Source: Tropicimonas sp. IMCC34043
Lineage (GTDB): Bacteria; Pseudomonadota; Alphaproteobacteria; Rhodobacterales; Rhodobacteraceae
Reading direction: 5' to 3'
DNA: 64,000 nucleotides
NCBI RefSeq assembly: GCF_003390845.1
Contig: NZ_QMEK01000004.1
Location: forward strand, 248,001 to 312,000
This document shows positions 19,530 to 30,134 of this stretch, piece after piece (positions within the stretch are counted from its first letter, which is position 1; the number at the start of each line of letters is the position of its first letter). The position numbers and the translations under genes were made by a program. A model generated the notes under the pieces. The model ran no database searches. It was not told the origin of the DNA and worked only from the letters and a program-made list of their open reading frames with translations.

Positions 19530-20384
19530 ATGGCAGTGCGCAGCGTGACACTCCGGCTGGTCGGGGTATTGATGATCGCCCTGCTGGCAGCGGGCTGCGA
19601 TGCCAATTCCCGTGGCATCAAGGCCAGCCGCGGCGCGCCGCTCGAGAGCTTTACCGCCGAACAGATCTACAAGCGTGCCGAATACGACCTGAACGGCGGC
19701 AACCCTGACGACGCGGCCGAATTGTTCGGCGAAATCGAGCGTCTCTATCCCTATTCGGAATGGGCCAAGCGGGCGCTGATCATGCAGGCGTTCTCGTACC
19801 ACACCGCGCATGATTACGAGAACAGCCGTGCGGCGGCGCAACGCTATATCGACTTCTATCCGGCCGACGAGGACGCGGCCTATGCCCAGTACCTGCTGGC
19901 GCTCAGCTATTATGACCAGATCGACGAGGTCGGCCGCGACCAGGGCCTGACATATCAGGCGCTGCAGGCGCTGCGCACGGTGATCGAGGTCTATCCCAAC
20001 AGCGAATACGCCAAGTCGGCGATGATGAAATTCGATCTGGCCTTCGACCACCTTGCGGCGAAGGAAATGGAGATCGGGCGCTATTACCTGCGCCATCAGC
20101 ATTATACCGCGGCGATCAACCGGTTCCGGGTGGTGGTGGAAGATTTCCAGACTACCTCGCACACGCCCGAAGCGCTGCTGAGGCTGGTCGAGGCCTATCT
20201 GGCGCTCGGGCTCGACGACGAGGCCGAGACCGCGGGCGCGATCCTGGCCTACAACTTCCAGGCGACAGTCTGGTATCGCGATGCCTACTCGCTGCTGGTC
20301 AAGAACGGTCTGACCGCGCAGGCCAAGGGCGACAGCTGGCTGCGGCAGGTCTATCGCCAGATGGTCAAGGGGCAGTGGCTCTGA
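19530..20384 (+). CDS. bamD: Outer membrane assembly lipoprotein BamD (ComL)
   Basis: TPR lipoprotein of the BAM complex that inserts beta-barrel proteins. The signal peptide ends in a lipobox (LAAGC, Cys23), followed by SFTAEQIYKRAEYDLNGGNPDDAAELFGE and further helical TPR pairs such as SRAAAQRYIDFYPADEDAAYAQY. The 284-residue length is typical of the family. The ATG at 19530 begins a normal lipoprotein signal; the frame is open further upstream, but that part has no signal features. lpxC and recN flank it on the same strand, each with its own spacing. Confidence 0.93.
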   Translation: MAVRSVTLRLVGVLMIALLAAGCDANSRGIKASRGAPLESFTAEQIYKRAEYDLNGGNPDDAAELFGEIERLYPYSEWAKRALIMQAFSYHTAHDYENSRAAAQRYIDFYPADEDAAYAQYLLALSYYDQIDEVGRDQGLTYQALQALRTVIEVYPNSEYAKSAMMKFDLAFDHLAAKEMEIGRYYLRHQHYTAAINRFRVVVEDFQTTSHTPEALLRLVEAYLALGLDDEAETAGAILAYNFQATVWYRDAYSLLVKNGLTAQAKGDSWLRQVYRQMVKGQWL

Positions 20385-25487: not shown

Positions 25488-26111
25488 TCAGCCGATCTCT
25501 TCCTCGTGGCAAGACAGTTGCGCCCCGCCCGGCGGCGTGAACATCGCATCGCGACCCTTGATCCAGAACTCGGTCGGCCCGCCTTCCCAGATGTCGCTGG
25601 CATAGCGCGACCCCGAGGCCGAGATCGCGATCGGCAGAACGAGCGCGTTGTCGCGCCAGCGCAGCACGACCATCGGGTCGGCGGTGTTGACGAAAGTGGC
25701 GCTCAGCCCGGCATCGAGCCCGCTGCATTCGTAGGCAAAGGGGCCGAGCGAGGCGCCGTCGCCTTCCCTTGCATCGGCGTTTCCGGCGCGGATCTCGTCG
25801 ATGCGAAAGGCGTATTCGTTGGCGACGCAGGTCTCGAGCCCGAGCGAGGACTTCCAGCACGCGTCGCGGCCCTTGATCCAGCCGCGCTGGGTTTCCTTCA
25901 GCGACTGGCTGCGGTCGGGCGTCGCATGGGGTCCGTTGACGGCAAGATTATAGACCCGCGCCAGTTCGACATCGAGTTCGGCAAGCGAAGGCGTGGCGCA
26001 GACCGCCTTTTCGGCGTCGCTTTCCGCGGCAGAGCAATCGAAGGACGGTTGAGCGCCGACCACGGCTGCAACGCAGGCGAACGGCAGGGCAAGAAGGCAG
26101 GCGTGTTTCAA
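25488..26111 (-). CDS. Periplasmic LprI-MliC two-domain lysozyme inhibitor-like protein
   Basis: Secreted protein of 207 residues. After a signal peptide (MKHACLLALPFACVAAVVGA) comes an LprI/DUF1311-like domain with paired cysteines (FDCSAAESDAEKAVC and TQRGWIKGRDAC), then a MliC-like beta domain (FAYECSGLDAGLSATF through DAMFTPPGGAQLSC). Both domain types inhibit host lysozyme in known members; here this is inferred. The start is TTG at 26111 with GGGAGG 7 bases upstream; another in-frame TTG lies at 26126 but is too close to that ribosome binding site. No lipobox is seen, so the protein should be soluble in the periplasm. Confidence 0.8.
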   Translation of the reverse strand: MKHACLLALPFACVAAVVGAQPSFDCSAAESDAEKAVCATPSLAELDVELARVYNLAVNGPHATPDRSQSLKETQRGWIKGRDACWKSSLGLETCVANEYAFRIDEIRAGNADAREGDGASLGPFAYECSGLDAGLSATFVNTADPMVVLRWRDNALVLPIAISASGSRYASDIWEGGPTEFWIKGRDAMFTPPGGAQLSCHEEEIG

Positions 26112-26212
26112 GGCGGGTCCTCCCAACGGATCCTGAAGTGACGACCACTATGGCGCCTCGCCACTGGCGGGCAAGGCGAAAGCTGACGAAGCGGCAGCGC
26201 ATGGTTCCGGCG

Positions 26213-26240
26213 TTGACAGTTTCAGGCGCTTTGCTAGCGT
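26213..26240 (+). promoter_or_regulatory. Sigma-70 promoter of the phytochelatin-synthase-like gene
   Basis: Consensus TTGACA (26213-26218), a 16-base spacer and TAGCGT (26235-26240). The predicted start is near 26247, about 23 bases before the ATG at 26270. The promoter also argues against any longer version of the gene starting near 26138. Confidence 0.65.
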
Positions 26241-26269
26241 GCCGGGATATCACTTATGTGGATCATCCC

Positions 26270-27034
26270 ATGACACTACTCCGCTCTGTCGCCGTGGCGC
26301 TTATCGCCTCTGGTGCAGCCATGGCCCTTGCCCTGCCGCTTGCCGCACAGGACGAGACGCCTGCGCCCAAACTTGGCCCCAACGCGGTGCCGATGACCGC
26401 CGAAACGACGTTCCTGCGCGAACAGCCGGCGCCGGACTATTGGGCCTTTGCGCCCTTCGTGAAGCCGCAGTTCACGACCTCGGCCTGCTCCATCGCTTCG
26501 GTCACCGCGGCAGTGAACGGTCTGCGCGGCCTGCCGGCGCTGGCCGAGGACACCGTGACGACCCAGTCCGACCTGCTGGAGGTGGTGGGCGATGCCGACT
26601 GGGCGTCGCTTTCGGCCGAGGGCGGCGATGGCGTGACCTTCGACCAGCTTGTCCAGTTCACCGGCGAGGCGCTGGCCGCGACCGGGCTCGATGGTGCAAC
26701 GGTCGAAACCTTCCACCCGACCTCGAACGATGCCGAGACGCTGGCGGCGATGAAGGCGATGCTGGCCGCGAACGAGGCCTCGGCCGACGACGTGATGTTG
26801 CTCTATTTCAACCAGGGCGTGGTGACCGGCGACTGGGACGGGCCGCATGTGTCGCTGATCGGCGCCTATGATGCGCCGAACGACAAGGTGCTGATCCTCG
26901 AGGTCGATCAGGAATGGTACATTCCCTACTGGACCCCGACCGAGGTTCTGCTGGACGCCATGCTGAAGCCGACCTCGGCCGAGCACGGGGTTCTGGAGGG
27001 CCAGACCGGCGGGTTCGTTCACATCGCGAAATGA
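26270..27034 (+). CDS. Exported phytochelatin-synthase-like cysteine peptidase
   Basis: A 254-residue protein with a signal peptide (residues ~1-26, cleavage after LPLAA). The mature part resembles the phytochelatin synthase/C83 papain-like fold: catalytic-Cys segment FTTSACSIASVTAAVNGL (Cys73), His segment GPHVSLIGAYDAPNDKVLIL (His193), then EVDQEWYIPYWTPTEVLLDAM, which lines up with the LDVARFKYPPHWVP block of plant and cyanobacterial enzymes. The expected catalytic Asp position is Glu211, with Asp213 two residues on. Bacterial relatives mostly cleave glutathione instead of making phytochelatins. Export to the periplasm is inferred from the signal peptide. No heavy-metal gene is adjacent. 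Confidence 0.75.
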   Translation: MTLLRSVAVALIASGAAMALALPLAAQDETPAPKLGPNAVPMTAETTFLREQPAPDYWAFAPFVKPQFTTSACSIASVTAAVNGLRGLPALAEDTVTTQSDLLEVVGDADWASLSAEGGDGVTFDQLVQFTGEALAATGLDGATVETFHPTSNDAETLAAMKAMLAANEASADDVMLLYFNQGVVTGDWDGPHVSLIGAYDAPNDKVLILEVDQEWYIPYWTPTEVLLDAMLKPTSAEHGVLEGQTGGFVHIAK

Positions 27035-27084: not shown

Positions 27085-27597
27085 TCAGGCGACCGCGGTC
27101 TCAGGCTTGAGGCTCATGCGGAACCGCGGGCCGGGGCTTGCCTGAACCTCGAAGCCGCAGCAGGGATAGACCGCCTGCGCCGCGTGGTTCGCGGGATCGG
27201 TGCCAACGGTGAGATAGCCGCAGCCGCGCCCGGCCGCCTGCGCCTTGGCGGCCTCGATCAGACGCCGGCCAAGCCCGCGCCCGCGCCATCCCGACTCGAC
27301 GTAAAGGTGGTGCAGATCCATGCCGCGGGCACCGGCCTGAAGCTGGGCCAGCGGCAGCAGCGCGGCATATCCCACAAGCGCACCGTCGCTTTCGGCCACT
27401 AGAACCGTGATCCAGGGGGCGTCGCCAAGGACGTCGCGGCGCAGTGTGGCGCGGTCAAGCGCCGGCGTGTCGCCGTGATGCGCGGCCAATGCCGCGATCA
27501 TCTCGGCAAGGCGCGGTATGTCGGCCCATTGCACCGGGCGGATTGACGGCTCGGGGGGGCGGAGGTCGGTCAGGGTCAGGTCGGATCGGCAGTCCAT
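27085..27597 (-). CDS. GNAT-family N-acetyltransferase under a leader-type 5' region
   Basis: Acetyl-CoA-dependent acetyltransferase of 170 residues, substrate unknown. Fold landmarks: IRPVQWADIPRLAEMIAAL at the N-terminus (motif C/D), LVAESDGALVGYAALLPL, and the acetyl-CoA loop RGRGLGRRLIEAA near residue 105, then CGYLTVGTDPANHAA and YPCCGFE (motif B). The ATG at 27597 has AGAGGAG 6 bases upstream, so it is preferred over an earlier frame start at 27630. That Shine-Dalgarno lies in a hairpin arm, and a terminator and a short leader ORF stand upstream, suggesting regulated expression. It converges with the phytochelatin-synthase-like gene. Confidence 0.88.
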   Translation of the reverse strand: MDCRSDLTLTDLRPPEPSIRPVQWADIPRLAEMIAALAAHHGDTPALDRATLRRDVLGDAPWITVLVAESDGALVGYAALLPLAQLQAGARGMDLHHLYVESGWRGRGLGRRLIEAAKAQAAGRGCGYLTVGTDPANHAAQAVYPCCGFEVQASPGPRFRMSLKPETAVA

Positions 27598-27605
27598 CTT
27601 AGGCT

Positions 27606-27652
27606 CCTCTGGTGCCACAGAGGACCGCACACGAAAAAAGCCGCTCTGTGGC
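27606..27652 (-). promoter_or_regulatory. Shine-Dalgarno-hiding hairpin and competing pairing before the GNAT gene
   Basis: On the minus strand, TCCTCTG pairs with CAGAGGA around a TGGCAC loop (plus coordinates 27605-27624). The 3' arm contains the GNAT Shine-Dalgarno. Independently, CTCTGTGGC (27614-27622) is perfectly complementary over 9 bases to GCCACAGAG in the loop and stem of the upstream terminator (27644-27652). Forming this long-range pairing would open both the terminator and the Shine-Dalgarno hairpin. This is read directly from the sequence; a switch function is inference. Confidence 0.55.
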
Positions 27653-27659
27653 GGCTTTT
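27634..27659 (-). terminator. Intrinsic terminator between leader ORF and GNAT gene
   Basis: Minus strand: perfect 9-bp stem AAAAGCCGC/GCGGCTTTT with loop CACAGA, then a run of six T. It starts 30 bases after the leader-peptide stop and ends 36 bases before the GNAT ATG. The position between a short ORF and a structural gene is that of an attenuator. Confidence 0.85.
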
Positions 27660-27688
27660 GTTCGAGTGATCTCTCCCAGGCACCGCTG

Positions 27689-27742
27689 CTATGAATAGCG
27701 GCGGTAAAACCAGCGGTTGGACAGGGGTCGGATCATGCTCAT
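27689..27742 (-). CDS. Putative 17-residue leader peptide MSMIRPLSNRWFYRRYS
   Basis: A short open frame reading MSMIRPLSNRWFYRRYS and then TAG. A near-consensus promoter puts the transcript start at or within a base or two of its ATG, so it would be translated from a leaderless mRNA, as is known for the rhizobial trp leader. It has no Shine-Dalgarno. The Arg-Trp-Phe-Tyr-Arg-Arg-Tyr run lies over alternative RNA pairings: the Asn-Arg-Trp codons (ACCGCTG) can pair with CAGCGGT after the stop (7 bp), and the Tyr-Arg-Arg-Tyr codons can pair with nearly the same downstream strand (9 bp, one mismatch). I do not recognise this peptide from a named family. Confidence 0.6.
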   Translation of the reverse strand: MSMIRPLSNRWFYRRYS

Positions 27743-27749
27743 GGCCGGA

Positions 27750-27777
27750 ACCCTAGCGCAAACCGGCGCGGGGTCAA
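27750..27777 (-). promoter_or_regulatory. Promoter of the leader-peptide/GNAT transcript
   Basis: Minus strand: TTGACC (27777-27772), 16-base spacer, TAGGGT (27755-27750). Only 7 bases separate the -10 from the ATG at 27742, placing the expected start at or next to the ATG. Five of six -35 bases match the consensus. Confidence 0.65.
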
Positions 27778-27799: not shown

Positions 27800-28786
27800 C
27801 TAACCTGTGGTCGTCGGTGTGCCGCGGGCTGGCGTTTCAGGGGCCAGTGCCAGTGCGGCAATCGCCCCCGGGGCTGCAGCGATCACCTCGTCGCCGGCCC
27901 GGGCAAGGATCGCCGCCAGCGTGCCGAACCAGCCCTGGCCGCGCGAACTGGCCCGGCGCACCAGCCCGATCACGCGCTGCGGCTGGGGTTCGGGAAACCG
28001 GGTCAGCGCCATCTCGGGGGCGGCGGCAGATTCGCGCGCGGCGGCAAGCTCGGGCAGGAACGTCAGGCCAAAGCCGCCGCCCACCAGCCCCGCAAGGGTC
28101 GAAAGCGAGGAGGCGCCAAGATCGACCCGCGTGTCGCGCCGGTCAAGCGCGCAGACCGCCAGCGCCTGATCGGCCAGGCAATGTCCCTCGTCCAGCAGCA
28201 AAAGCTGGCGCGGCAGCAGCGAGGTCGGGTCGGGCACATGGCCTTCGGCGCGCATCCGGCCGATCTGGTCGCAGGACCCGGCAAGCAGGAAGCGGTCGGT
28301 GAACAGCGGCGTTTCCTCAAGCCCCTGTTCCCCCGAGGGGAGCGCGATCACGGCGGCATCGAGCCGGCCCTCGGCCAGATCCTCGATCAGGGTTCCGGTG
28401 CGAGCCTCGCGCACCCGCAGGTCGAGCCGAAGGTTTTCGGCCCGCAGCAGCGGCAGCGCGGCCGGGATCAGATAGGGCGCCACCGTCGGGATCACCCCGA
28501 TGGACAGCCGCCCGCCAAGCCCGCGGGTCAGCCGCGCCGTCCGTTCCAGCGCACCAATTTCGGCCAATACACGCCGGGCATGACCCAGCACCTCGTGGCC
28601 CGCAGGGGTCAGCGTGACCTTGCGCGGCTGACGTTCCAGCAGCATTACGCCGAGACCCTGCTCCAGATCCTTGATCTGCACCGACAGTGCTGGTTGGCTG
28701 ACATGGCAGACCTCGGCGGCGCGACCAATCTGTCCCTGTTCTGCCACGGCGACGAAATAGCGGAGTTGGCGGAGTGTTACATTCAT
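27800..28786 (-). CDS. oxyR: OxyR-type LysR-family hydrogen peroxide sensor
   Basis: LysR transcription factor of 328 residues: N-terminal winged helix (LRQLRYFVAVAEQGQIGRAA, HVSQPALSVQIKDLE) and a C-terminal sensor domain. LLDEGHCLADQALAVC carries Cys203 and Cys212 with the same 9-residue spacing as the redox pair of E. coli OxyR, so it should sense H2O2 by disulfide formation. The ATG at 28786 directly starts MNVTLRQLRYF; there is no Shine-Dalgarno, but a promoter ends 6 bases before it. The porin gene diverges from the same 229-base region. Target genes such as a catalase are not in this window. Confidence 0.88.
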   Translation of the reverse strand: MNVTLRQLRYFVAVAEQGQIGRAAEVCHVSQPALSVQIKDLEQGLGVMLLERQPRKVTLTPAGHEVLGHARRVLAEIGALERTARLTRGLGGRLSIGVIPTVAPYLIPAALPLLRAENLRLDLRVREARTGTLIEDLAEGRLDAAVIALPSGEQGLEETPLFTDRFLLAGSCDQIGRMRAEGHVPDPTSLLPRQLLLLDEGHCLADQALAVCALDRRDTRVDLGASSLSTLAGLVGGGFGLTFLPELAAARESAAAPEMALTRFPEPQPQRVIGLVRRASSRGQGWFGTLAAILARAGDEVIAAAPGAIAALALAPETPARGTPTTTG

Positions 28787-28820: not shown

Positions 28821-29015
28821 GGTCGTCTTATGGATTGAAAGAGTGGACTGCGCATCGGCGCCCGGATATGGGAAAATCCGGCAGTGGCGCGCGCGTGGAC
28901 CAAGTCCGAAATATGCACGTCATGTGCTATGGCTAAGGCCTCGTTTATGATCGTTGTGCGCGTGCCTCGCCCCGTCCGCCCGCCGGGGGATCGGCGGCTT
29001 TGGTGGAGAAACCGA

Positions 29016-30134
29016 GTGAGAATTGCCGTGAGACCAGTCGTTTCGCTCGGGGTCGGACCAGCCGCCGTCTTGCTGGCGACTGCCGCGCTTGCCGACCCGC
29101 TCAGCTATTCCGATGCCAGTGGTGACGTTATCTTCTATGGCCAGCTCAGCCCGACCTATCTGGGGTTCGACGATGGCGAGGAAAGCTTTGGGAACCTCGC
29201 GGACAATGATATTTCGAATTCGCTGGTCGGGTTCATCCTCGATTGGCGCATTGGTGCCGGTGTCGGCCTTCGGTTCAATCTTGAGGCCTCGATTGGGGCG
29301 CCGCAATCCTCGGCGTTCAGCCAGGGTTTCGAGCCGATCTGGGAGTGGGACAAGACCGACCTGAGGCACTTCGAACTGATCCTCGACACTGCTTTCGGCA
29401 AGCTGTCGGCCGGGCAGGGCTCGATGGCGACCGATGGAACGCCGGAGCAGGACCTGTCTGGGACATCGCTTGCGGGCTATGTGAGCCGTTCGGATACGGC
29501 GGGGGGCTATTTCCTGCGCCAAAGCTCGGGAGATCTGTCGGACATCAATATTGGCAGTGCCTTCATGGATTATAACGGCGGCAGGCAATTCCGCGTGCGC
29601 TATGACACGCCCGAATATTCCGGGTTCAGCGCCGCCGCAGCCTATGGCGTCGACATTCTGACCGAGGGCGACGACAACGATTATTACGACATCGCGGTCA
29701 ATTATGGCGGCGAACTTGGCGCGACGACGGTTGCCGCCTCCCTCGGTTGGTCCTGGGTACATGATCCCGATACCGGGGATACCACGAACCGTCGCCTCGG
29801 CTCGATTTCGGTCCTGCACAAGCCCTCCGGGCTGAACGCGACCGTCGCCGCGGGGGCCGAGCCCGATGCCGGCAGCTATGTCTATGGCAAGCTGGGGTGG
29901 ATCGGCGATGTCCTGGCCGTGGGCAGCACTGCGGTCGCGGTCGACTATTACAACGGCGAGGATTTGGGAATGGACGGTTCGTCCTCGAGGTCCTGGGGCG
30001 TCGAGGCGGTACAGAGCTTCGACAAGGCGAAGATCGATGCCTATGTCGGCTGGATAAGCTATGCCTACGATGACGATGCGGCATCCTACCGGGATGCCAG
30101 TTCGACCATGGTCGGGATGCGCTGGACGTTCTGA
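29016..30134 (+). CDS. Outer membrane porin
   Basis: General diffusion porin of the alphaproteobacterial type. The 372-residue precursor has a signal peptide (residues ~1-26, ending ATAALA before DPLSYSD), then a sequence of alternating amphipathic strands rich in Gly, Tyr and Asp, low in Cys, and ends in ...MRWTF; a terminal Phe is the beta-barrel assembly signal read by BamA. A typical segment is NGGRQFRVRYDTPEYSGFSA. The GTG at 29016 has GGAG 8 bases upstream; the frame is open further upstream, but that portion is not signal-like. A GC-rich imperfect hairpin follows the stop. Confidence 0.87.
   Translation: MRIAVRPVVSLGVGPAAVLLATAALADPLSYSDASGDVIFYGQLSPTYLGFDDGEESFGNLADNDISNSLVGFILDWRIGAGVGLRFNLEASIGAPQSSAFSQGFEPIWEWDKTDLRHFELILDTAFGKLSAGQGSMATDGTPEQDLSGTSLAGYVSRSDTAGGYFLRQSSGDLSDINIGSAFMDYNGGRQFRVRYDTPEYSGFSAAAAYGVDILTEGDDNDYYDIAVNYGGELGATTVAASLGWSWVHDPDTGDTTNRRLGSISVLHKPSGLNATVAAGAEPDAGSYVYGKLGWIGDVLAVGSTAVAVDYYNGEDLGMDGSSSRSWGVEAVQSFDKAKIDAYVGWISYAYDDDAASYRDASSTMVGMRWTF

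Follow-up and report, generated by a model that had tools for sequence, protein, structure and literature searches.

A predicted leaderless attenuator with tyrosine codons ahead of a GNAT acetyltransferase gene in Rhodobacterales and Rhizobiales

Amino-acid attenuators are known mainly ahead of biosynthesis and tRNA-synthetase genes. In the window analysed here, a stretch of 64,000 nucleotides from Tropicimonas sp. IMCC34043, a short reading frame on the minus strand stands between a promoter-like sequence and an intrinsic terminator, and the gene behind it encodes a GNAT acetyltransferase. The locus raises the question of whether this frame is a leader that governs the acetyltransferase gene and, if so, which signal it reads. 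A first-pass annotation had proposed a leader-peptide attenuator with an acetyltransferase as output, and comparison with related loci supports that proposal through the layout, the tyrosine codon and the covariation of the RNA helices. We consider it likely that the element is a leaderless, ribosome-mediated transcription attenuator ahead of the GNAT gene that senses a shortage of Tyr-tRNA. The features that sequence comparison itself establishes are the layout, the promoter spacing, the Tyr codon, its distance to the segment behind the stop codon, and the covariation of three pairings.

The leader region in the window

The promoter, which like every feature of the leader lies on the minus strand, consists of TTGACC (27772–27777) and TAGGGT (27750–27755) with a 16-nt spacer, and 7 nt separate TAGGGT from the ATG of a 17-codon frame, just as had been annotated. 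This frame, MSMIRPLSNRWFYRRYS, occupies 27689–27742 including its stop codon (27691–27689) and is predicted, from its sequence and from the family comparison, to be translated leaderless. A second, in-frame ATG at 27736 would give a 15-residue form of the same length as Tropicimonas peptides; the first ATG (27742) matches the promoter spacing of the family (35 nt, against 35–37 nt). The Trp-Phe-Tyr codons (27704–27712) are the expected stall site, no distinct peptide from the first set of loci described below being without Tyr.

Region 1, ACCGCTG (27717–27711), is complementary over 7 bp to CAGCGGT (27688–27682) in region 2, CAGCGGTG (27681–27688), which lies immediately 3' of the stop codon; the GCGG of region 2 begins 20 nt past the first Tyr codon, where the commonest value in the family is 23 nt. 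The Tyr-Arg-Arg-Tyr codons pair with TAGCAGCGGT over 9 bp with one mismatch, a stem that is present in the minimum-energy fold. Both pairings had been reported at first pass and both are present; they are only part of the switch and, since they share one post-stop strand, neither is the antiterminator. As judged from the family's sequences, the antiterminator is instead the post-stop GCGG segment paired with the 5' arm of the terminator (pairing 2:3 in the numbering used here). In the window itself this helix has 5 bp and is no better than in shuffles, so the window's own antiterminator is weak.

The intrinsic terminator (27634–27659), which had likewise been placed ahead of the GNAT gene, comprises region 3, AAAAGCCGC, the loop CACAGA, region 4, GCGGCTTTT, and a T run; read as AAAAGCCGC-CACAGA-GCGGCTTTTTT from 27659 to 27634, it stands upstream of the GNAT ATG at 27597. 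Behind it, region 5, CTCTGTGGC (27614–27622), is a perfect 9-bp complement of GCCACAGAG, which spans the end of region 3, the loop and the start of region 4; 4% of other region-5 segments score equally well with the window's loop. The Shine-Dalgarno (SD) sequence of the GNAT gene, AGGAG, lies at 27604–27608, and TCCTCTG (27624–27618) with CAGAGGA (27611–27605) may form a hairpin that sequesters it (27605–27624, pairing 5:6), a candidate that rests on the permutation test given below. A 6-bp form of this hairpin appears in the centroid of the 145-nt fold that runs from the leader ATG to the GNAT ATG; the fold from the stop codon on leaves the SD unpaired, and there region 2 is able to pair with region 5 too, the SD then being left open. 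The 145 nt fold with a z-score of -2.56 (2 of 200 dinucleotide shuffles fold as well), and the last 95 nt, from the stop codon, with one of -3.81 against such shuffles.

The promoter and the terminator were both absent from the output of a generic consensus promoter and terminator scan, so the window alone is weak evidence and the family comparison decides. Rfam covariance models gave nothing at E<=1 between positions 20000 and 36000 of the window, and five matches in ten representative loci, none of them at the leader.

Occurrence of the leader and its tyrosine codon

A protein search of 40 genomes recovered an orthologue of the GNAT gene in all 8 of the same-genus genomes searched, and each of these loci has an upstream 15-codon frame of the form M-(N/T)-5 residues-(R/S)-F-Y-W-x-R-x-x. 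TTGAC is present at all of them except L010, whose -35 is degenerate; in each of the 8, GCGG occurs in the segment after the stop, the terminator is GC-rich, and its loop has a complement further downstream. Outside the genus, MSRFFANERYCHAFP stands in the same layout at L007; no leader was found upstream of the orthologue at L005. The gene is patchily distributed: of 295 family genomes, 32 have it at E<=1e-25, the family matches in G205 and G645 standing outside the locus counts because they gave no loci.

The first set for systematic comparison comprised 75 loci from a scan of named genomes with a GNAT alignment. Under a strict rule (an ATG mini-ORF of 8–25 codons, TTGA starting 34–38 nt upstream, two adjacent aromatic residues, at most 300 nt from the GNAT match), 60 of the 75 carry a leader; shuffled regions yield one in 4 of 3000 cases, and at 19 less closely related GNATs none was found. 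Hand addition of L040, L094 and L096 brings the count to 63, leaving 12 loci with no recognised leader. Conservation at orthologous loci had been named beforehand as the check on the proposal, and the leader is indeed kept in both Rhodobacterales and Rhizobiales, among numerous bacteria of sea and soil: in Rhizobiaceae (for example MIDARATISCTYFWAYR and MIAQAHTTAVYFWGYR), in Bradyrhizobium (MIARATTMCRYYAPSP) and in many Rhodobacterales, with YYRR, YFT, WYF and other cores. A later set held 21 family loci, none of which has a 40-mer in common with any earlier locus. Here a looser rule (Tyr or adjacent aromatics, a frame of 8–27 codons and the same TTGA condition) found a leader at 14 loci, against 17 of 2100 shuffles, and at 0 of 9 distant class-level GNATs, 8 of them new and L188 being identical in sequence to L105. 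The leader of a further locus, L217, was read by eye as MCLDAISFGSYYCRFI and lacks TTGA; the other 6 loci have no recognised leader.

When presence of the leader is mapped on a GNAT tree of 73 rows, 7 changes are required, a number as low as in only 2 of 500 shuffles, and near-copies alone can mimic such clustering; the pattern would fit an old trait that was lost several times. The tree does not include L094, L095, L101 or L033, the frame of the last stopping early. At L033, on an uncultured Ruegeria contig, the GNAT frame (2501–2974) has an internal stop and the leader looks intact.

Of 63 non-redundant leaders, 61 have TTGA 35–37 nt ahead of their ATG, TTGA at 34–38 nt being part of the rule by which most of them were found. 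In the -10 element of 36 TTGA-aligned leaders the A reaches 81% and the last T 50%. An SD-like 4-mer lies 5–15 nt before the leader ATG in 2 of 37 leaders, and one occurs within 40 nt upstream of the GNAT match in 19 of 37, the latter being a longer window whose end, the start of the match, is not always the start codon. The TTGA spacing and the rarity of SD-like 4-mers indirectly support a transcript start at the leader ATG.

The peptides point to the signal. Among the distinct peptides of the first set Tyr occurs in 56/56, Arg in 54/56, Phe in 49/56 and Trp in 31/56; the strict rule demanded two adjacent aromatics and not Tyr as such, and Tyr is found in 16% of 1560 mini-ORFs of 12–19 codons anywhere in the same loci, the leaders included. 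It lies 5 or 6 codons ahead of the stop in 51 of 59 peptides, where shuffled residues reach at most 24; the commonest place of Arg is -3, in 23 of the 59. Aromatic residues, arginine or stalling in general had been offered as the signal at first pass, and the aromatic part of that suggestion stands, narrowed to Tyr, with Phe or Trp codons apparently often added to it. The Tyr codons of the leaders are TAT in 71 cases and TAC in 33. In the later set, L201, L212 and L214 have no Tyr beside another aromatic, and in L186 Tyr is the final residue.

Of 61 leaders, 43 have the GCGG or GGCG segment 23 nt past the first Tyr codon; from that codon to the terminator loop the distance is 52–74 nt. In L038 the stop codon is shifted downstream, yet the GCGG segment still lies 23 nt past the Tyr codon, which suggests that the distance is set by the RNA segment and not by the stop. 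Five of the 61 leaders have no GCGG or GGCG segment (L031, L032, L035, L048 and L080). The first four of these are Tateyamaria loci with frames of 22–24 codons, L031 and L032 also being without a T run; a purely translational form of the switch is possible at these four loci.

A fixed distance from Tyr to the stop, together with the recurrence of Arg-rich cores such as YYRR, is also what a nascent-chain arrest of the TnaC or Erm type might produce, the peptide stalling the ribosome at a set place on a small-molecule cue, with Tyr read in the exit tunnel. We regard this as quite unlikely, because the neighbours of Tyr vary (YY, FYW, YFW, WYF, YC, YR), as does the N-terminal half, because in L038 it is the stop that moves and the RNA segment that keeps its place, and because two leaders ahead of trpS, described below, have Trp-Trp codons. 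Substitutions within clusters were also counted. In the leader frame of the Rhizobiaceae cluster the pairwise differences are 67 synonymous and 279 nonsynonymous, the N-terminal codons varying irrespective of coding; in the core, Tyr-Phe-Trp is identical at the nucleotide level (TATTTTTGG) and the 29 differences that do occur are all nonsynonymous. In the Tropicimonas/Aliiruegeria cluster the differences are 16 synonymous against 56 nonsynonymous, and 9 to 4 in the core. Coding constraint over the whole frame within clusters is not supported by these counts, and the invariant TATTTTTGG beside unconstrained N-terminal codons speaks for conservation of a codon within a conserved RNA rather than of the peptide.

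The identity of the codons admits one more reading. tRNAs that read codons beginning with U carry an isopentenyl or methylthio modification at A37, and the cores are frequently runs of UAU, UUU, UGG and UGC codons, so that the leader might sense U-initial codons (Tyr, Phe, Trp, Cys) as a class and report under-modified A37 tRNA, for example in iron shortage. This seems to us very improbable: L201, L212, L214 and L222 have a single such codon followed by Arg or Gln, and Tyr alone occurs in every first-set peptide, Phe and Trp falling short of that.

A related pair of leaders bears on whether a particular codon is sensed. Covariance model R1, built from nine leaders including those of the window and of G007, gave matches at E<=0.01 in 7 of 198 family genomes, namely the window, G007, three further GNAT leaders (MNHSAQTARYCRRSI, MTTHSRSNFYYYPRSS and MIRIATLASAARWYFTAYT) and two trpS genes. 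The trpS matches, L110 and L112, at about position 1501, are weak (E 2.2e-4 and 0.004); they are Trp-Trp leaders, MTRLTHLFFQNWWRA and MENIIIIAMTWWLAS, and the proteins downstream (first 150 and 100 residues) match trpS models, NF008922 best. In the sequence of both one can see a terminator and, downstream, a segment complementary to its loop; L112 lacks TTGAC at the expected position. These leaders differ from the window type in their output, a tryptophanyl-tRNA synthetase in place of a GNAT, and Trp-Trp codons before trpS, the codon matching the gene, fit codon-specific sensing. The broader notion, that leaders of this kind are general among aromatic tRNA-synthetase genes, was given up after counts in 24 genomes for each gene (own genome included), where a doubled-codon leader was found before trpS in 0/24 and before pheS in 0/24, and such a mini-ORF, without a promoter, before tyrS in 1/24.

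Covarying helices and a proposed switch

By rule, 61 of the 63 leaders have a terminator hairpin (L044 and L052 have none), with at least 4 T within the 8 nt behind it in 52 of the 61. The predicted terminated RNA is mostly 101–116 nt long, the extremes being 124–127 nt. Against shuffles of each single leader, pairing 2:3 stands out at p<=0.05 in 36 of 61 and pairing 3:5 in 45 of 61. For permutation tests over the family, 26 clusters of leaders were formed and the partner segments of their representatives were redistributed at random, so that close relatives counted once.

The first-pass proposal had called for covarying stems across relatives, and they were found. For the antiterminator 2:3, anchored on the Tyr codon, 7 of 20000 permutations over the 26 representatives reach the observed score, and across the family as a whole the sequences indicate that antiterminator and terminator exclude one another. 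In a shifted-window control region 2 scores 413.5, a window 18 nt upstream 252 and one 36 nt downstream 438.5; this downstream window runs into the loop and 3' arm of the terminator, which is already the partner of region 3. For the helix between terminator loop and region 5 the summed cognate score was reached by 0 of 20000 permutations (26 representatives): loops as unlike as GTCA, ATCA, CACAGA, GCGA and ATGG are each matched by their own complement downstream, in 13 of the 26 representatives the cognate pair outscores 90% or more of the swapped partners, and the partner is missing in L031 and L098. Covariation of the SD-hiding hairpin 5:6 is weaker than that of the other two pairings, 26 of 20000 permutations reaching the score among 25 representatives, a test that left out L033 (no start by rule) and L040 and L100 (no upstream segment left to pair). 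The hairpin is good-looking in L001, L045, L048, L049, L086 and L093 and absent in others.

We propose that these helices work as follows. Transcription would start at or beside the leader ATG, and the ribosome would initiate on the 5' end of the RNA. With Tyr-tRNA charged, and Phe- or Trp-tRNA too where such codons flank Tyr, the ribosome would reach the stop codon and cover the GCGG of region 2, the terminator hairpin 3:4 would form and a short RNA would be released. A ribosome waiting at the Tyr codon would have its leading edge halted before region 2, which would then be free to pair with the 5' arm of the terminator, and the polymerase would read on into the GNAT gene. Low levels of charged tyrosine tRNA would thus probably turn the GNAT gene on.

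Region 5 lies behind the terminator, where the polymerase has already passed, so it has no effect on termination in cis and should instead influence how the read-through mRNA is translated or how stable it is, or work in trans. The overlap of its pairing with the loop and the possible SD-hiding hairpin suggests a second, translational layer: as region 5 complements the terminator loop and overlaps hairpin 5:6, translation of the GNAT gene from the read-through mRNA may depend on a further rearrangement. Pairing in trans with region 5 would also be open to the terminated RNA, which might itself be the main product, as a trans-acting sRNA or a small mRNA like rnTrpL/peTrpL, with read-through into the GNAT gene secondary. 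The similar predicted length in most leaders and the Sinorhizobium meliloti precedent, as far as the excerpted account goes (PMC7298713), speak for such a role, but the element stays with the GNAT gene across differing gene contexts and region 5, being beyond the terminator, has no evident role inside the terminated RNA. We think it unlikely that the short RNA is the main product; a function for it and attenuation of the GNAT gene are mutually compatible.

The acetyltransferase and known attenuators

The gene that attenuation would control (27085–27597, minus strand) encodes a GNAT N-acetyltransferase of 170 aa (Pfam PF00583, E 7.5e-18), a general acetyltransferase by Pfam for which no NCBIfam cut-off was reached. 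Its structure model has a pLDDT of 91.4, and the best Foldseek match is 2fe7, a probable N-acetyltransferase of Pseudomonas aeruginosa with about 28% identity in the structural alignment; by sequence and fold together the nearest solved relatives are 2fe7 and the thialysine/diamine acetyltransferases (12jc, 2bei). In these SSAT2-like enzymes a stretch LED(L/I)YV presumably has a role in substrate binding. The window protein lacks this class motif and has HHLYV instead, so its substrate may differ from theirs; the second His is invariant in alignment A1 and at least 90% conserved in A4, from which L033 and L034 were excluded for stop codons in the given range.

Gene context was considered as a functional clue and set aside, the neighbours differing among groups. 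Named by eye, they include TRAP/MFS-like transport genes, GntR- and AccA-like genes in Sulfitobacter, and MerR-, DJ-1/PfpI- and cytochrome c-like genes in Rhizobiaceae. In Rhizobiaceae loci such as L049 and L050 the DJ-1/PfpI-like gene, again so named by eye, lies closely 3' of the GNAT gene on the same strand and may be co-transcribed with it. In the window a LysR regulator (27802–28786, minus strand), nearest to OxyR models and below their cut-offs, ends about 25 nt before the leader -35. A phytochelatin-synthase-like protein (26237–27034, plus strand; PF05023, E 6.3e-14) is convergent with the GNAT gene, a protein fusing LprI- and MliC-like lysozyme-inhibitor domains is encoded at 25488–26126 (minus strand), and a 400-aa protein, porin-like by eye and without a Pfam or NCBIfam match, at 28932–30134 (plus strand).

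If the leader does read tyrosine, the signal is a clue to the substrate of this uncharacterised GNAT. Acetylation of aminoacyl nucleotides has been described for MccE and RimL (PMC3817062, as excerpted), and a combined reading can be framed in which the terminator loop is freed only when a stalled ribosome lets 2:3 form and then pairs with region 5, releasing the GNAT SD. One stall would then permit transcription and translation of the GNAT gene alike, and the enzyme would acetylate aminoacyl-nucleotide inhibitors, as MccE and RimL do, in defence against compounds that block tyrosine charging. Taken jointly, these proposals are speculative and probably wrong in at least one part.

The attenuator itself, as we read it, has close relatives among known systems. 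In the trpL/rnTrpL system of S. meliloti and other Alphaproteobacteria the leader is leaderless and its transcript begins at the AUG, cognate aromatic codons are read, the position of the ribosome picks terminator or antiterminator, and a small terminated RNA results (PMC7298713, PMC10117765, excerpted text). The GNAT leaders share with the trp type the codons of the sensed residue in a short frame and the intrinsic terminator between frame and gene. They differ in that trpL has consecutive Trp codons ahead of a Trp biosynthesis gene, where they have Tyr with optional Phe or Trp ahead of a GNAT gene, and in their conserved loop-complementary segment after the terminator, which is unmentioned for trpL in the excerpts of the same two papers. 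The second relative, uORFC-8-2 before cysS in Rhodobacterales, resembles them in its short frame with tandem cognate codons, its intrinsic terminator and its proposed ribosome-mediated attenuation (PMC8632094, excerpted text). Its Cys codons, usually at 14–15, and its tRNA-synthetase gene set it apart from the Tyr codons and GNAT gene described here; the GNAT leader has neither tandem Cys codons nor cysS downstream, and the excerpts on uORFC-8-2 mention neither leaderless initiation nor a pairing of the loop with a downstream segment.

No GNAT leader is named in the excerpted text of PMC7298713, PMC10117765, PMC2965389 (an attenuator survey), PMC3738593, PMC1273637, PMC11109978, PMC3817062 or PMC8632094, and in the open-access literature, supplements aside, we found no account of a Tyr leader before a GNAT gene. 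Being short and having no ribosome-binding site, leaders of this kind will probably be overlooked by gene-prediction programs, and there may be others. A Tyr-codon attenuator on a GNAT gene in two orders points to an unrecognised tie between tyrosine charging and acetylation. Set beside trpL and uORFC-8-2, the mechanism is of a known kind; what is new is the GNAT gene as output, a putatively leaderless leader with Tyr codons shared by two orders, and a segment past the terminator that complements its loop.
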